Positions 35,264 through 44,208 of a stretch of DNA of 64,000 nt are shown in pieces. The position numbers and the translations under genes were made by a program. Source of the DNA: Veillonellales bacterium (lineage in GTDB: Bacteria; Bacillota; Negativicutes; JAAYSF01); contig JBDKTO010000083.1 of NCBI GenBank assembly GCA_039680175.1, positions 1 through 64,000 on the forward strand, in the 5' to 3' direction. Every line of letters starts with the position of its first letter. Within the stretch, counting starts at the first letter, position 1. The notes below the pieces were generated by a model. The model did no database searches and was not told the origin of the DNA. It saw only the letters and a list, made by a program, of their open reading frames with translations.

Positions 35264-36742
35264 TTAATCCACTACCTTAATTGTTTTTAAAGTATAATCT
35301 TCCGGGCCGGAAATATGCAGACCCGCTTCCTGAAGACGATGGCAGTAATCAATGACATCCCGGGAAATCCGTTCTCCCGGGCAAAGCAGCGGAATACCGG
35401 GCGGATAAAAAGTTACGATTTCCGCACATACCAAGCCGACCGAATCTTCAAACGAAACGGTACAAGTATTGCCAAACAGCGCCTTCCGGGGAGAAATAAC
35501 GCCTTCCGGCGAATCGGGATACTTGATATTGGCGAAAACATCCTCCACTGCCGAAAAATCACACTCGCCGCAGTGCTTGACAGCCATGTCCCGTAAGGCA
35601 TCCACCAAAATATGGGCTTCCTTATCGCTGTCGCCTAAAGTAATCAAAAACAACAAATTGTACATGTCGGAAAGTTCAGCCTGGACATGGTACTGCTGCC
35701 GCAGAATCCGTTCCGCTTCCGCTCCCTGAAGCCCCAGTCCTTTTACCGTAACCGTAACTTTGGTCGGATCAATGCTGTAGACACCGGGAGTGCCCAGCTT
35801 TTCCTCCCCGAAGCAGTACAAACCCGGGATCTTGTTGATTTCCTGGCGGACCCACTGGGACAGTTGAATCGCCCGGTCAATTAATTCCCGCCCCTGGGTG
35901 CCCATCTGCATCCGGGCCACATCTAAAGACGCCATCAAAATATAATTGGGGCTGGTAGACTGTACCAACTGCAGCATAGCTTTCAGCCGGGGGACATTGA
36001 CCCGTCCTTCCCGGCAGTGGACAATGGAGCACTGTGTCATAGCGCCAATAATCTTATGGGTGCTTTGGGCGCAAATATCCGCTCCGGCATCAAGGGCCGG
36101 AATGGGCAGCTTGTCGCTGAATTTAAGATGAGGCCCGTGAGCCTCGTCCACCACTACCGCCATCCCCCGGGAATGTACGATATCGACGATTCGTTTCAAA
36201 TCCGTCGCCACACCGTAATAAGTGGGGTTAATGATCAGCACGCCTTTGGCGTCAGGATGCCGGCTGACCGCCGCTTCCACCGTTGCCGGACTGACTCCCA
36301 TAGCCAGCCCCAGTTCCCGGTCTATTTCCGGTTGCATAAAAATCGGAATAGCGCCGCTCAATATAATCCCGCCGATAATCGATCGGTGGGCGTTGCGGGG
36401 CACGATGATTTTTTCTCCCGGCCCGGCAATGGTTAAAATCATGGCATAAATACCGCCGGTAGTGCCATTGACTACAAAAAAACTATGATCGGCTTCATAC
36501 AGTTCCGCCGCCAAATCCTGAGCTTCTTTAATACAGCCGTGAGGTTCATGGAGATCATCCAGTTCCCCCATTAAGGCTAAATCCAGCGCCAAAGCGTCGT
36601 GCCCGATGATGTTTCCTAAACGGGGGTGCATTCCTTTTCCCTGTTTATGTCCCGGTGTATGAAAGGGAACAACTCCGTCCTGTACATAATGCAGCATTGC
36701 TGCCAATAAAGGTGTCTCAACCTGCCTTGTTCTGAGCAACAC
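35264..36742 (-). CDS. Orn/Lys/Arg decarboxylase-type PLP enzyme (SpeA/YaaO-like)
   Basis: Fold-type I PLP decarboxylase of 492 residues. FHTPGHKQGKGMHP at the N-terminus, VNGTTGGIYAMI, VVDEAHGPHLKFS (PLP aspartate) and SAQSTHK-type ICAQSTHKIIGAMTQ (PLP lysine), followed by the small C-terminal domain. Bacillus YaaO occupies the same place before tmk; whether it uses arginine, lysine or ornithine cannot be told. The start is GTG 36742 with AGGAGG 5 nt upstream (TTG 36739 is possible). First gene of the tmk-yaaR-holB-yaaT-trmN6-rsmI run. Confidence 0.92.
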   Translation of the reverse strand: MLLRTRQVETPLLAAMLHYVQDGVVPFHTPGHKQGKGMHPRLGNIIGHDALALDLALMGELDDLHEPHGCIKEAQDLAAELYEADHSFFVVNGTTGGIYAMILTIAGPGEKIIVPRNAHRSIIGGIILSGAIPIFMQPEIDRELGLAMGVSPATVEAAVSRHPDAKGVLIINPTYYGVATDLKRIVDIVHSRGMAVVVDEAHGPHLKFSDKLPIPALDAGADICAQSTHKIIGAMTQCSIVHCREGRVNVPRLKAMLQLVQSTSPNYILMASLDVARMQMGTQGRELIDRAIQLSQWVRQEINKIPGLYCFGEEKLGTPGVYSIDPTKVTVTVKGLGLQGAEAERILRQQYHVQAELSDMYNLLFLITLGDSDKEAHILVDALRDMAVKHCGECDFSAVEDVFANIKYPDSPEGVISPRKALFGNTCTVSFEDSVGLVCAEIVTFYPPGIPLLCPGERISRDVIDYCHRLQEAGLHISGPEDYTLKTIKVVD

Positions 36743-39245: not shown

Positions 39246-40526
39246 TTGAAAGACGAACAACTGGCAACCAGTCTGCCTGTAACCATGCCGGCCCTAGCCG
39301 GAGAAGAAATCAAAGCAAAAGCGAAGGGCCTGTTTAAATACCTGGGCCCGGCGTTTATTGTCAGCGTCGCTTACATGGACCCCGGTAATTTCGGCACCAA
39401 CATCAGCGGCGGCTCGCAATTCGGCTACAATCTGGTTTGGGTAATTCTCTGGAGTAACTTGATGGCAATCTTCGTGCAAATCCTTTCTGCCAAGTTGGGC
39501 ATCGCTACAGGAATCGGCTTGCCGGCACACTGCGGCAACCTATTCCCGCGAAAAATCAACTGGGGCTTATGGTCAGTAGCCACCGTAGCAGCCATGGCTA
39601 CCGATCTTGCGGAATTTCTGGGGGGGGTATTAGGCTTTAATCTGTTATTTGGCATTCCTTTAGTGTGGGCGGCAATCCTTACAGGAATCATTACCTATGT
39701 GATCTGTCACCTGCAAAAATACGGTCAGCAAATCGTAGAACGGATTATCACCTGCATGGTAGCCGTCATCAGCATCGCCTATATATGGGAGTTGTTTCTT
39801 GCCAGACCGGACTGGGGGCAGGTAGGCTACCATCTTGCCGTCCCTATGCTTACACCGGACAGCATTCTGGTCGCCGTCGGAATGCTGGGTGCTACCGTCA
39901 TGCCCCATGTGATTTATTTACATTCTCATCTCGTGCAGCAGCGTCGCTGTAAACATCTGGTGGATTGCAAACACCATTTAAAGATGGCTAAGATTGACGT
40001 GTTCTTCGCAATGAACATGGCGTTCATCGTAAATGCAGCCATGGTCATCGTTTCAGCCGCCGTATTCAATGGCAATGGTCTCGACGTAGACAGCATCGAA
40101 GCCGCCTATGCCACTTTACAGCCTTTAATGGGCAATATGGCTGCCGGCGCTTTCGGGTTCGCCCTGTTGGCTTCCGGACTCTCATCCTCTACTGTGGGCA
40201 CGATGGCCGGAGAAGTCATATTAAACGGTTTTGTTGGCTTTGACATCCCGGCAAGCTGGCGGCGTATCATTACCATGCTTCCCGGTATGGCCATCCTCAT
40301 GGCCGGGATTAACCCCATGAGCGCCCTGGTTGTGAGTCAGGTTATGCTCAGTTTCGCTTTGCCGGCGGCCATTATTCCGCTGATGATTATCACCAGCAAG
40401 CCGCACATTATGGGAACCTTTAAAAACAGCCGCCTTACCAATGTTATCGGCTGGATTATCGTGAGCATGATCGTAACCTTAAATGCCGTTCTTCTCTATC
40501 TTACTTTCACCGGTCAGGCAAACTGA
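39246..40526 (+). CDS. mntH: Nramp-family Mn2+/Fe2+ transporter
   Basis: Proton-coupled divalent metal importer, 426 residues and about 11 helices. Helix 1 has the metal motif MDPGNFGTN (DPGN) and helix 6 has GATVMPHVIYLHS (MPH with its preceding Ala/Thr). The TTG start at 39246 follows GGAGGAG by about 12 nt. It stands alone. A 44-nt hairpin follows the stop, and beyond it on the opposite strand is a manganese riboswitch whose read-through transcript would run antisense through the 3' end of this gene. Confidence 0.93.
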   Translation: MKDEQLATSLPVTMPALAGEEIKAKAKGLFKYLGPAFIVSVAYMDPGNFGTNISGGSQFGYNLVWVILWSNLMAIFVQILSAKLGIATGIGLPAHCGNLFPRKINWGLWSVATVAAMATDLAEFLGGVLGFNLLFGIPLVWAAILTGIITYVICHLQKYGQQIVERIITCMVAVISIAYIWELFLARPDWGQVGYHLAVPMLTPDSILVAVGMLGATVMPHVIYLHSHLVQQRRCKHLVDCKHHLKMAKIDVFFAMNMAFIVNAAMVIVSAAVFNGNGLDVDSIEAAYATLQPLMGNMAAGAFGFALLASGLSSSTVGTMAGEVILNGFVGFDIPASWRRIITMLPGMAILMAGINPMSALVVSQVMLSFALPAAIIPLMIITSKPHIMGTFKNSRLTNVIGWIIVSMIVTLNAVLLYLTFTGQAN

Positions 40527-40535
40527 ATGGGTACA

Positions 40536-40579
40536 CCGCAAGGTCTGGCGAAATAGCAGTTTCGTTACAGACCTTGCGG
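40536..40579 (+). terminator. Hairpin after mntH
   Basis: Perfect 12-bp stem (CCGCAAGGTCTG and complement) with an inner CGAAA/TTTCG stem, starting 10 bp after the stop. The T-run is weak (AATTTCT). On the other strand it has no T-run. Confidence 0.6.
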
Positions 40580-40603
40580 AATTTCTGGGGGCGGGAAAAT
40601 TAT

Positions 40604-40644
40604 AAAAGGCCTTCATTTCCAGCAGCATGCCGGAAACAAAGGTC
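40604..40644 (-). terminator. Intrinsic terminator of the manganese riboswitch
   Basis: On the minus strand GACCTTTGTTTCC pairs with GGAAATGAAGGCC around a GCA/TGC upper stem, followed by TTTTATAATTTT. Its 5' arm reuses the CCTTT that closes aptamer stem P1, so Mn2+ binding to the aptamer should prevent termination. Confidence 0.75.
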
Positions 40645-40736
40645 TCGCTACAGCAGAATCTCTGCCAGTAGAACCGGGCTTACGCCAGTATGTCGATTCT
40701 ACTCACGGGCTGACCGCCCGTTAGCTACTCCCCTTT
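40638..40736 (-). ncRNA. yybP-ykoY (manganese) riboswitch aptamer
   Basis: The minus strand contains the two hallmark segments AAAGGGGAGTAG at the 5' side and GCGAGACCTTT at the 3' side, closing stem P1 (AAAGG/CCTTT). Between them are three clear helices: ACGGGC/GCCCGT, AGTAGAA/TTCTACT and GCAGA/TCTGC. yybP-ykoY elements sense Mn2+ and usually switch on exporters. Here the next sequence in the transcript direction is the end of mntH in antisense, with no exporter gene. Confidence 0.87.
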
Positions 40737-40760
40737 AGGAGTTTTATGATTTCTTACTGT

Positions 40761-40788
40761 AGTATATGTCGGCGGCAGGATTGTGCAA
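40761..40788 (-). promoter_or_regulatory. Promoter driving the manganese riboswitch
   Basis: Minus-strand TTGCAC (40788-40783) and TATACT (40766-40761) with a 16-bp spacer, 25 bp before the aptamer. It lies downstream of the kdpE stop, so the riboswitch transcript is independent of kdp. Confidence 0.65.
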
Positions 40789-40808
40789 CCGTAAAATATA
40801 TTTTTTTG

Positions 40809-41489
40809 CTATTTATGCATCAGCCGGTAGCCGATTCCCGATTCGGTGATCAGGTATTGCGGTCGGGCCGGTTCTTCTTCTATCTTCCGGCGCAGTTGTC
40901 CGATATACACCCGGACATACTGGGTATCTTCACTTTCGATTCCCCAAACCCTTTTTAACAGCTGCCGGTGAGTCAAAACCTTGCCGGCATTCTGGGCCAG
41001 AACCTTCAGCAAATCATACTCCGTCGGCGTCAGCTTGATTTCCTTGCCGGCAATCGTAACCTGGTGCTTTGCCAAATCAATAAGCAAATCGCCGCAATGC
41101 ACCTGAGGATCTTCCGACCCGGCCGCCGCGTGCCGAAGACAAACACGGATCCGGGCCATCAATTCGCCCATGCTAAAAGGCTTGGTTACATAATCATTGG
41201 CGCCGCCGTCCAGCGCCTTCACCTTCTCTTCTTCCTGATCCCGGGCGGACAAAACAATAATCGGCACATCGGACCACTCCCGGATGCTGCCGATGACCTT
41301 CTTGCCGTCCAAGTCGGGCAGTCCCAGGTCCAGCAGGATAAGCTCCGGCTTTGCGCTTAAAACCAGTTCAATCCCTTCCTGCCCGTTCACGGCTTGGAGC
41401 ACCTGATAGCCGTGTCCTTCCAGGGAGACTTTGATCAACCGGCGAATCTGTATCTCGTCATCGACAATCAAAATCTTCAGCTTATCCAT
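40809..41489 (-). CDS. kdpE: KdpE response regulator
   Basis: OmpR-type response regulator of 226 residues that activates kdp when potassium is low. The receiver domain has ILIVDDE, LILLDLGLPDLDG with the phospho-Asp, VLSARD and VTKPFSMGEL. The C-terminal winged helix ends VRVYIGQLRRKIEEEP...ESGIGYRL. Last gene of the kdp operon, 37 bp after kdpD. Confidence 0.95.
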   Translation of the reverse strand: MDKLKILIVDDEIQIRRLIKVSLEGHGYQVLQAVNGQEGIELVLSAKPELILLDLGLPDLDGKKVIGSIREWSDVPIIVLSARDQEEEKVKALDGGANDYVTKPFSMGELMARIRVCLRHAAAGSEDPQVHCGDLLIDLAKHQVTIAGKEIKLTPTEYDLLKVLAQNAGKVLTHRQLLKRVWGIESEDTQYVRVYIGQLRRKIEEEPARPQYLITESGIGYRLMHK

Positions 41490-41526
41490 TGATCTATCCC
41501 ATCCTTACCCTCTTGCGGGGTGAAAG

Positions 41527-44208
41527 TTATTTACCGAGGGGCAGGGTAAACCGGACCCGCGTTCCGTTTTCCGGACGATTTGCCGCCCAAATCGTCCCGC
41601 CGTGGGCTTCAATGATGCCCTTGCAAATGGATAGCCCCAAGCCGGTCCCGCCGGCGCGGGAGCCTGCCACACGATAAAACTTATCAAAAATATGATTTAA
41701 ATCCTGCTCCGGAATTCCACCGCCGTGATCCGCCACCGTAATCATAACGGTCTGGTCCTCTCTGGAGGCGCTAATCTCAATCGCCTTGTCAGCCGGTGAA
41801 TATTTTACAGCATTATCCACTAAATTGACCAATACCTGTTCCAATAAAACACAGTCACCGGGGATCAGCGGCAAAGGTTCCGGTATATCCACCTGTATCT
41901 GCCTGCCGGCCACGCTTTCTCCCAGCCGCCCCAGGGCAGCGCCGATCACATCTTCCACGTCACACCAGTCATGTTTAATTTTAATAGCACCGCTTTCCAG
42001 ACGGGCAGTGTCCAGTAAATTCGTAATAATCCGTTCCATGCGGATGGCCCCGTCTTTGATATTATCCAGCAGTTCCGCCTGGATATCCCGGGACAAAGCG
42101 ATTTCCTTATCCAGCAGCGTCGAGATCGAGCCGATAATCGTAGCAAGGGGTGTACGCAATTCATGGGATATGGAATTAAACAAGGCGGACTGCAGCCGTT
42201 CCGATTCCTGCAGCAAAGCCGCATGGTTGGCTTCGGTAGTCAGATAAATCCGCTCCACGGCAATGGCGGCAATCGTCGTCCAGGCGTCAATCAGCCGCCG
42301 CTGTTCCGGCGTGACGCTTTTTTCCACCATATGAAGTCCCATAACCCCCATAACCTGCCCCCGCACGATCAGCGGCAAATACAAAAATCTGGCCGAAGGC
42401 AGCGTCTCTGTGGACCGTCCGGCAACCTCGCCATGTTCATACGCCCAAGTCGCAACCGCCAGCTCACTGGGATCAAGAACGAGGTTCGCCTCGGTATTCT
42501 CCAGGCTTTCACAGGCTTTCAGTTCTATTTTGCTATTTTCATTGGGAAGAAAAACTGCGACCGACCGCTCTAACGCTTGTGATGCTGTTTGGGCCAATCC
42601 TGCTATAATGGGCTCTAATTCCACAAGGGCGGCGACTTTCCTGCTGAATTCATATAATGCCCGGGTCATTTTTTCCCGTTTCCGGGCAAACCGCGCCTCA
42701 TTCCGCAGCCGTTCCGTCTGCCCGCCGGCAACAAAAGCAACGAGTAAAAAAATTAAAAATGTCCAAATATACCGAAAATCCTGAACGGTAAAGCTTAATA
42801 CCGGCGGCACAAACAAAAAGTCAAAAATAACTACACTGCAAACCGCAGTGGCATAGGATGGTCCCCGGCCCCACCAGGCGGCGCTTAACAGCACCGGCAG
42901 CAAAAAAAGCATGGCAATGTTCACCAGTTCAAGCATTGGCAGCATAAGCCAGCTGACCGCAGCAGCCAGCCCCAGCATGAACAGGCCGCCGGCATAATGT
43001 TCCCAGTTTACTCTTGACGGCCGGATGGCGGTTTTCACTTTCGGCACATCGTCTTTATCCCGTTTTCCCTGAATGACGTGGATCTGGATCCCGCCGCAAC
43101 TGCGGATCAGCTTATCCACCAGCGCCCCGCCCCGAACCCATTCCCAGAAACGATTATGCAGCGGCTTGCCGATTACAAGATGGGTTATATTTTCACTATG
43201 GGAAAAGGTCAGGATTTCATCGACCATATTCCGACCTGAAACCGTCATGACTTTACCGCCCAGGTCTTCCGCCAGCCGCATGTTGCGGGCCAGCCGCTCT
43301 CTCTCCTTATCGTCCGCAGGCGTGTTGTGCAGCGTCTCAATATGCACGGCATACCACTCCGCCTTCATTGCCTTGGCCATTCGTTTGGCAATCCGGATCA
43401 GATGAGCCGAAAAAGGACTGGCACTGACGCATACCAGCACCTTTTCGGCTGCCGACCAGGGTCCTTCAATCGCGTGATCGTGCATATATTCATTTAACTG
43501 CTGATCAACACGATGAGCCGTAAACCGCAGTGACATTTCCCGCAGGGCATTGATATTCCCGGGACGAAAAAAGCTGTGCAGCGCCCGTTCCGCCTGCCCG
43601 GGTACATAGACTTTTCCTTCTTTTAACCGCTTAATCAAATCCTCCGGCGGAATATCAATCAGCTGCACCTGATCGGCTTGGTCCACGATATAGTCCGGCA
43701 CCGTTTCCCGGACTTTGATGCCGGTAATCTGCTCCACAATATCATTCAGGCTTTCCACATGCTGAATATTAAGGGTCGTATACACATTGATCCCGGCATT
43801 CAATATCTCTTCCACATCCTGAAACCGCCGGACATGGCGGGAATCAGGCACATTCGTATGGGCCAGTTCGTCCACCAGAACAAGCTGGGGATGTCTGGCC
43901 AGTATCGCTTCCAAATCCATCTCCGCCAACGTTTTCCCCCGGTATTCAACCATTTTGGACGGAATTTGCGGCAGTCCCGCCGCGATAGACTCTGTTTCCT
44001 TGCGGCCGTGAGTTTCCACCCAGCCGATAACGATATCCACGCCTTCCGCCAGCCGGTCATGAGCATTTTCCAGCATCGCGAAGGTTTTTCCCACCCCGGC
44101 GGCAGCGCCGAGAAAGAGCGTGAGTTTGCCGCGGGATGCCTGTTTCGCCTTTTTCAGCAAAAGCTCCGGATCCCGGCGCGTTTCCTGATTGATACTCACT
44201 CCAATCAC
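41527..44208 (-). CDS. kdpD: KdpD osmosensitive K+ sensor histidine kinase
   Basis: A full-length 893-residue sensor. The cytosolic KdpD domain has Walker A GAAAGVGKTFAML and the Walker B-like LVLVDELAHTN; a USP domain follows (about residues 245-370). Four membrane helices (about 400-500), a GAF-like domain, the H-box FNSISHELRTPLATII and an HATPase (DNAVKYSP, DHGGGIPEQD, GTGLGLSICKG) complete it. It phosphorylates KdpE and senses potassium or turgor. 27 bp after kdpC. Confidence 0.96.
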   Translation of the reverse strand: MIGVSINQETRRDPELLLKKAKQASRGKLTLFLGAAAGVGKTFAMLENAHDRLAEGVDIVIGWVETHGRKETESIAAGLPQIPSKMVEYRGKTLAEMDLEAILARHPQLVLVDELAHTNVPDSRHVRRFQDVEEILNAGINVYTTLNIQHVESLNDIVEQITGIKVRETVPDYIVDQADQVQLIDIPPEDLIKRLKEGKVYVPGQAERALHSFFRPGNINALREMSLRFTAHRVDQQLNEYMHDHAIEGPWSAAEKVLVCVSASPFSAHLIRIAKRMAKAMKAEWYAVHIETLHNTPADDKERERLARNMRLAEDLGGKVMTVSGRNMVDEILTFSHSENITHLVIGKPLHNRFWEWVRGGALVDKLIRSCGGIQIHVIQGKRDKDDVPKVKTAIRPSRVNWEHYAGGLFMLGLAAAVSWLMLPMLELVNIAMLFLLPVLLSAAWWGRGPSYATAVCSVVIFDFLFVPPVLSFTVQDFRYIWTFLIFLLVAFVAGGQTERLRNEARFARKREKMTRALYEFSRKVAALVELEPIIAGLAQTASQALERSVAVFLPNENSKIELKACESLENTEANLVLDPSELAVATWAYEHGEVAGRSTETLPSARFLYLPLIVRGQVMGVMGLHMVEKSVTPEQRRLIDAWTTIAAIAVERIYLTTEANHAALLQESERLQSALFNSISHELRTPLATIIGSISTLLDKEIALSRDIQAELLDNIKDGAIRMERIITNLLDTARLESGAIKIKHDWCDVEDVIGAALGRLGESVAGRQIQVDIPEPLPLIPGDCVLLEQVLVNLVDNAVKYSPADKAIEISASREDQTVMITVADHGGGIPEQDLNHIFDKFYRVAGSRAGGTGLGLSICKGIIEAHGGTIWAANRPENGTRVRFTLPLGK

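Follow-up and report, generated by a model that had tools for sequence, protein, structure and literature searches.

The window, the 64,000-nucleotide stretch of Veillonellales DNA that we analysed, carries a complete Mn2+ (yybP-ykoY) riboswitch on its minus strand, with a promoter-like site and a terminator, which points into the 3' end of mntH, the gene for an Nramp-family Mn2+ importer. Based on its anatomy, its strand and its conserved position beside mntH, we propose, with a probability of about 0.8, that it is an antisense-acting riboswitch, a Mn-ON switch that would gate an antisense RNA lowering the expression of mntH.

Organization of the mntH locus

The features of the locus, in order of position, are the following.

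39246..40526, plus strand: mntH, Nramp-family Mn2+ importer of 426 aa, the predicted antisense target (Pfam Nramp, 390 bits)
40536..40579, plus strand: hairpin 3' of the mntH stop (CCGCAAGGTCTG...CAGACCTTGCGG), seen in the sequence and matched by a hairpin at the same place in relatives
40566..40594, plus strand: 29-nt near-repeat of mntH codons 118-127 (39599-39627)
40607..40645, minus strand: intrinsic terminator of the riboswitch, with a T-rich tail to about 40595
40637..40737, minus strand: Mn2+ (yybP-ykoY) riboswitch aptamer, with P1.1 (TAAAGG/CCTTTG), P1.2, P2, P3 (7-nt loop ACATACT) and P4
40761..40766, minus strand: -10 element TATACT, seen in the sequence and conserved in position, weak alone
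40783..40788, minus strand: -35-like element TTGCAC, seen in the sequence, weak alone
40809-44208, minus strand: kdpE and kdpD, which directly precede the riboswitch

The mntH gene encodes a full-length Nramp protein, and the profile search assigned it to the NCBIfam family "Mn(2+) uptake NRAMP transporter MntH" with 516.7 bits. The hairpin at 40536..40579, which sits between mntH and the riboswitch terminator, is probably the terminator of mntH. The distance from the mntH stop to the aptamer is 210 nt, so the element lies less than 500 nt from the 3' end of the gene and is transcribed toward it, as is required of an antisense-acting riboswitch, and it has no sense gene of its own downstream. 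The next gene on the minus strand past mntH encodes an Orn/Lys/Arg decarboxylase and starts at 36742; minus-strand gene starts are therefore absent for about 3.8 kb, which bears out the preliminary description, according to which only the 3' end of mntH, in antisense, follows the riboswitch. The arrangement is not an excludon, in which the antisense RNA doubles as the mRNA of an adjacent gene with an opposing function, given that there is no conserved minus-strand gene beyond mntH and that only one truncated locus (G014:C3, described below) resembles one.

The near-repeat of codons 118-127, which encode TDLAEFLG, forms the right arm (40566-40594) of the hairpin that follows mntH. The two copies are identical at 26 of 29 nt in the window and at 30 of 30 in locus L213; besides the window, the repeat was found at L213, L215, L217 and L224, the other relatives being without it. 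Since the repeat lies just past the riboswitch terminator, an antisense RNA reading through would also be complementary to the interior of mntH. A requirement for the repeat as a second target site was rejected, as the repeat is clear in only five of the 14 compared loci. In genome G004, mntH is broken at the position of the repeat, as if the copies had recombined.

Anatomy of the riboswitch

Promoter, aptamer and terminator were all recovered on the minus strand at the positions where the preliminary description had placed them. The aptamer matches the whole RF00080 model at 40745-40652 of the minus strand (35.4 bits, E 3.4e-7 for the 4 kb searched), below the curated gathering threshold of 45 bits, for which reason a plain Rfam scan returns nothing at this locus. 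Such low scores are usual in the class, where the RF00080 cut-off was exceeded in only one of 60 genomes, and the element is the sole Mn riboswitch match in its own 4.08 Mb genome. With the model R1, the window aptamer scores 163 bits. It has the conserved fold of the family, namely P1 with the GGGGAGUAG loop strand, P3 with its 7-nt ACAUACU loop, and P4, and the element folds far more stably than its shuffled versions (z -5.3, 0 of 200).

The terminator shares a strand with P1, as had been claimed: the P1 3' strand is contained in the 5' arm of the terminator (40645-40607, minus strand). Regarding the promoter, read earlier as TTGCAC-16-TATACT, the sequence is present on the minus strand and its position is aligned in the relatives, but its score as a single site is unremarkable; it is absent from the list produced by a consensus promoter scan, and about 32% of shuffled sequences score as well. 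About 12 of 15 relatives have a -10 of the CATAYWATAY type at an equal distance, and three have no clear -10.

Covariation and functional strand of the element

An alignment (A1) of 15 elements was made. In the aptamer, 99.2% of the cells are paired and five pairs show double-sided changes, a result reached by none of 500 shuffles; in the terminator form, double-sided changes occur in seven pairs (15 elements, again 0 of 500 shuffles). When the non-Watson-Crick cells are read on the minus strand, 39 are G.U and 2 are C.A, an asymmetry that places the functional RNA on the minus strand and by which one on the plus strand is rejected. The plus-strand matches of R1 at the element sites correspond only to the palindromic terminator stem. 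A chance or pseudo-match, which the sub-threshold Rfam score could have suggested, is ruled out by the covariation and by the existence of a group of elements above 150 bits.

The sharing of a strand between P1 and the terminator is found in 15 of 15 elements, and the fold energies favour the terminator form over the P1 form by 12-22 kcal/mol. Read-through is thus expected only when the ligand holds P1 during transcription.

Conservation of the convergent arrangement in Negativicutes

R1 was searched over 380 genomes of the class, and the mntH orthologues were located independently. Matches above 150 bits occur at 17 places, the next match having 85 bits, and all 17 are convergent to mntH, which is intact at 14 of them; simple counts of this kind are inflated by the relatedness of the genomes. 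At the three remaining places, mntH runs off the contig end (G309), survives as a C-terminal remnant (G014:C3), or is cut after about codon 127 (G004:C10). Starting from the importer, we located 18 mntH orthologues in 17 genomes, 17 of them with a readable 3' flank, and the element is convergent in 14 of these 17, with 201-265 nt between the stop and the aptamer. The backward placement seen in the window is thus kept at 14 intact loci from many families. The neighbouring genes on both sides vary between families, and mntH is therefore the only constant partner of the element. At G004:C10 and G014:C3 the riboswitch is intact although mntH is broken, which indicates either that the two are not strictly inseparable or that the breaks are recent.

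The high stability of the terminator means that most transcripts should be short, and regulation in trans by short RNAs from riboswitches has been described (PMC9943018); the product of the element could accordingly be a short terminated RNA, a small RNA derived from the riboswitch that acts in trans. Such an RNA would explain neither why the placement is constant, with 70-138 nt between the mntH stop and the terminator at the compared loci, nor why the element travels with mntH through varied neighbourhoods, and we give this explanation only a slim chance.

The same conservation weighs against a relic, that is, a riboswitch that once preceded an exporter gene, since lost or displaced, and is now inert. 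Mn riboswitches do normally precede exporters, and at the duplicated locus G014:C3 (L211) the riboswitch is followed by the antisense C-terminal remnant of mntH and then by ytaF, of the MntP family, in the direction of the riboswitch. However, the promoter position, the aptamer and the terminator are kept at the 14 intact loci, in many families, with differing flanks and with no exporter downstream, and an inert element would be expected to decay, yet this one covaries. An exporter gene following the riboswitch in relatives, the case that would have spoken for recent gene loss, was looked for and not found at any intact mntH locus; a recent loss is ruled out by the conserved layout together with the differing flanks, and a relic in general seems very improbable. 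At L211, the backward switch may be turning into a sense leader.

We are similarly disinclined to believe that the element serves merely to terminate or insulate convergent transcription, protecting mntH against reading from its neighbour, which in the window is kdpDE. Its position between mntH and the minus-strand kdpE would suit such a role, but a terminator alone would suffice for it, while a whole metal aptamer and a conserved promoter position are kept, and in the relatives the neighbour is not kdpE and often has the opposite orientation. Transcription reading through from kdpE and kdpD could also feed the riboswitch in the window; the kdp neighbour is unconserved in relatives.

Least credible of all is that the read-through serves some overlooked short gene or small-protein frame antisense to mntH, since the frames of 60-125 aa present on that strand vary in length and start, mirror the codons of mntH, and share no common start near the riboswitch among the loci with intact mntH.

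Proposed mechanism

In Lactococcus lactis, Mn2+ stabilises P1.1 of the Mn riboswitch and thereby blocks the overlapping terminator (PMC11087558). If the element beside mntH operates in the same manner, its separate minus-strand promoter would produce a leader RNA whose fate depends on the metal. At low Mn2+ the terminator would form and transcription would stop after about 150-170 nt, leaving just a short RNA; at high Mn2+ the aptamer would hold the P1.1 helix, the terminator would be blocked, and the polymerase would proceed leftward through the 3' end of mntH. The expression of mntH could then be lowered by head-on collision, by RNase III cleavage of an RNA duplex, or by both. Antisense RNA reaching into mntH at high Mn2+ is expected to leave less importer, so the outcome would be a direct negative feedback on Mn2+ uptake. 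This is the circuit that the preliminary description had envisaged; the conserved orientation strongly supports this core reading, the strand shared by P1 and the terminator fits an ON switch, and the ON direction is inferred from L. lactis.

Canonical Mn riboswitches from this class offer a contrast, as they read in the sense direction into the exporter-type genes that follow them, most of which belong to the GDT1/UPF0016 type (AEMGDKTQ motif) and some of which are TerC-like or others, whereas the only frames following the antisense elements are those antisense to mntH. In four genomes from one family (L218, L219, L220 and L222) both kinds occur together: a canonical Mn riboswitch stands before a GDT1 exporter gene, mntH comes directly after that gene, and the antisense element follows, convergent to mntH. 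These paired loci, with the exporter in sense and the importer in antisense, fit the feedback logic that the arrangement suggests.

Relation to MntR

MntR is a protein repressor that acts at the mntH promoter and turns the importer down at high Mn2+. The regulatory result that we predict for the riboswitch is the same, by a different route, and a MntR-like gene holds the place of the riboswitch in three relatives, which also fits the feedback logic: at G007, G043 and G117, whose mntH orthologues lack the element, a DtxR-family gene lies convergent directly after mntH, its best NCBIfam match being MntR at 111.8 bits, below the cut-off of 138 bits. Among the Negativicutes, 13 genomes combine the element with an intact mntH, and nine of these, including that of the window, have no DtxR-family protein (PF02742), a proportion that we rejected as statistical proof because this protein is also absent in 31 of 60 sampled genomes of the class. 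The other four, as well as G523 from another class, encode a DtxR-family protein together with the element; one of the genomes with both is that of Lucifera butyrica (G324), in which the regulator is divergent beside mntH. An exchange between the element and MntR at mntH is plausible from these gene arrangements. We see roughly even odds for the broader proposition that, in a deep lineage, RNA serves as the Mn-dependent repressor of the Mn importer, with antisense read-through taking the role of MntR and the two being swapped locus by locus, and with one family adding a sense exporter switch so that export rises as import falls.

Comparison with known systems

By 2023, experiments had described only two antisense-acting riboswitches, the SAM riboswitch of the ubiG operon and the B12 riboswitch of pocR, and in each case it is the ligand that terminates the antisense RNA (PMC9943018). 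The SAM riboswitch of ubiG-mccB-mccA in Clostridium acetobutylicum resembles the present element in being convergent at the 3' end of its target and in controlling by antisense read-through, but there the ligand terminates transcription and the target is ON at high ligand, whereas here read-through is predicted, with the target OFF. The B12 riboswitch of pocR in Listeria monocytogenes likewise lies at the 3' end of its target and gates an antisense RNA; its ligand stops that RNA, and its target is a regulator, while mntH encodes a transporter. With the canonical yybP-ykoY riboswitches (L. lactis yoaB and the GDT1/TerC genes) the element shares the aptamer fold and the competition between P1.1 and the terminator, although those are sense leaders of exporters and here an importer lies in antisense, with no sense gene.

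The closest precedent is an antisense yybP-ykoY riboswitch at CFE_2050 of Carboxydocella thermautotrophica, predicted in silico by Serrano-Gutierrez and Merino in 2023 at the 3' end of a Mn transporter gene and proposed to stop the over-accumulation of Mn (PMC9943018). It was a single case from Clostridia without evidence on conservation or strand, whereas the present group belongs to Negativicutes and its window member falls below the Rfam cut-off. The survey in that study counted 5 antisense versus 1907 sense yybP-ykoY riboswitches, that is, no enrichment (P = 1.0; PMC9943018). We found no other report in the literature on Mn riboswitches, antisense and mntH, and the literature on Sporomusa transcriptomes gave nothing useful. 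The view that a metal-sensing antisense circuit would be new therefore has to be narrowed: riboswitches that act in antisense were known, and one for Mn had already been predicted, so that the new part is the conserved family, with its strand evidence, covariation, negative control and plausible exchange with MntR. The loci at which the exporter has a sense switch and the importer an antisense one are also new.

If the proposal is correct, this would be a conserved case in which the target is lowered at high ligand, while both experimentally described cases raise it, and it would be built by reversing the direction of an ON switch, with an evident physiological purpose and with a protein repressor as its natural substitute. 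Elements of this kind can go unnoticed, either by scoring below the Rfam threshold or by being counted with the "riboswitches without a gene".

Occurrence beyond the class

The same layout occurs in another class (G523, Nramp 73.6% identical, 136.7 bits), in a Bacillota MAG (L076, Nramp 57% identical, 57.4 bits), and in two genomes of one genus outside the class (G383 and G429, Nramp 50% identical), which may be Carboxydocella, the genus with the predicted antisense element. A further Mn riboswitch (L241, G645:C1:763628-763815, 73 bits) faces a FeoB-type gene (FeoB_C, Gate) at its 3' end, in convergent orientation; a second case of this kind was not present in the one other genome of the G645 family examined. 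No sense gene lies near L241, which is perhaps another antisense-acting Mn riboswitch, in this case on a divalent-metal importer.
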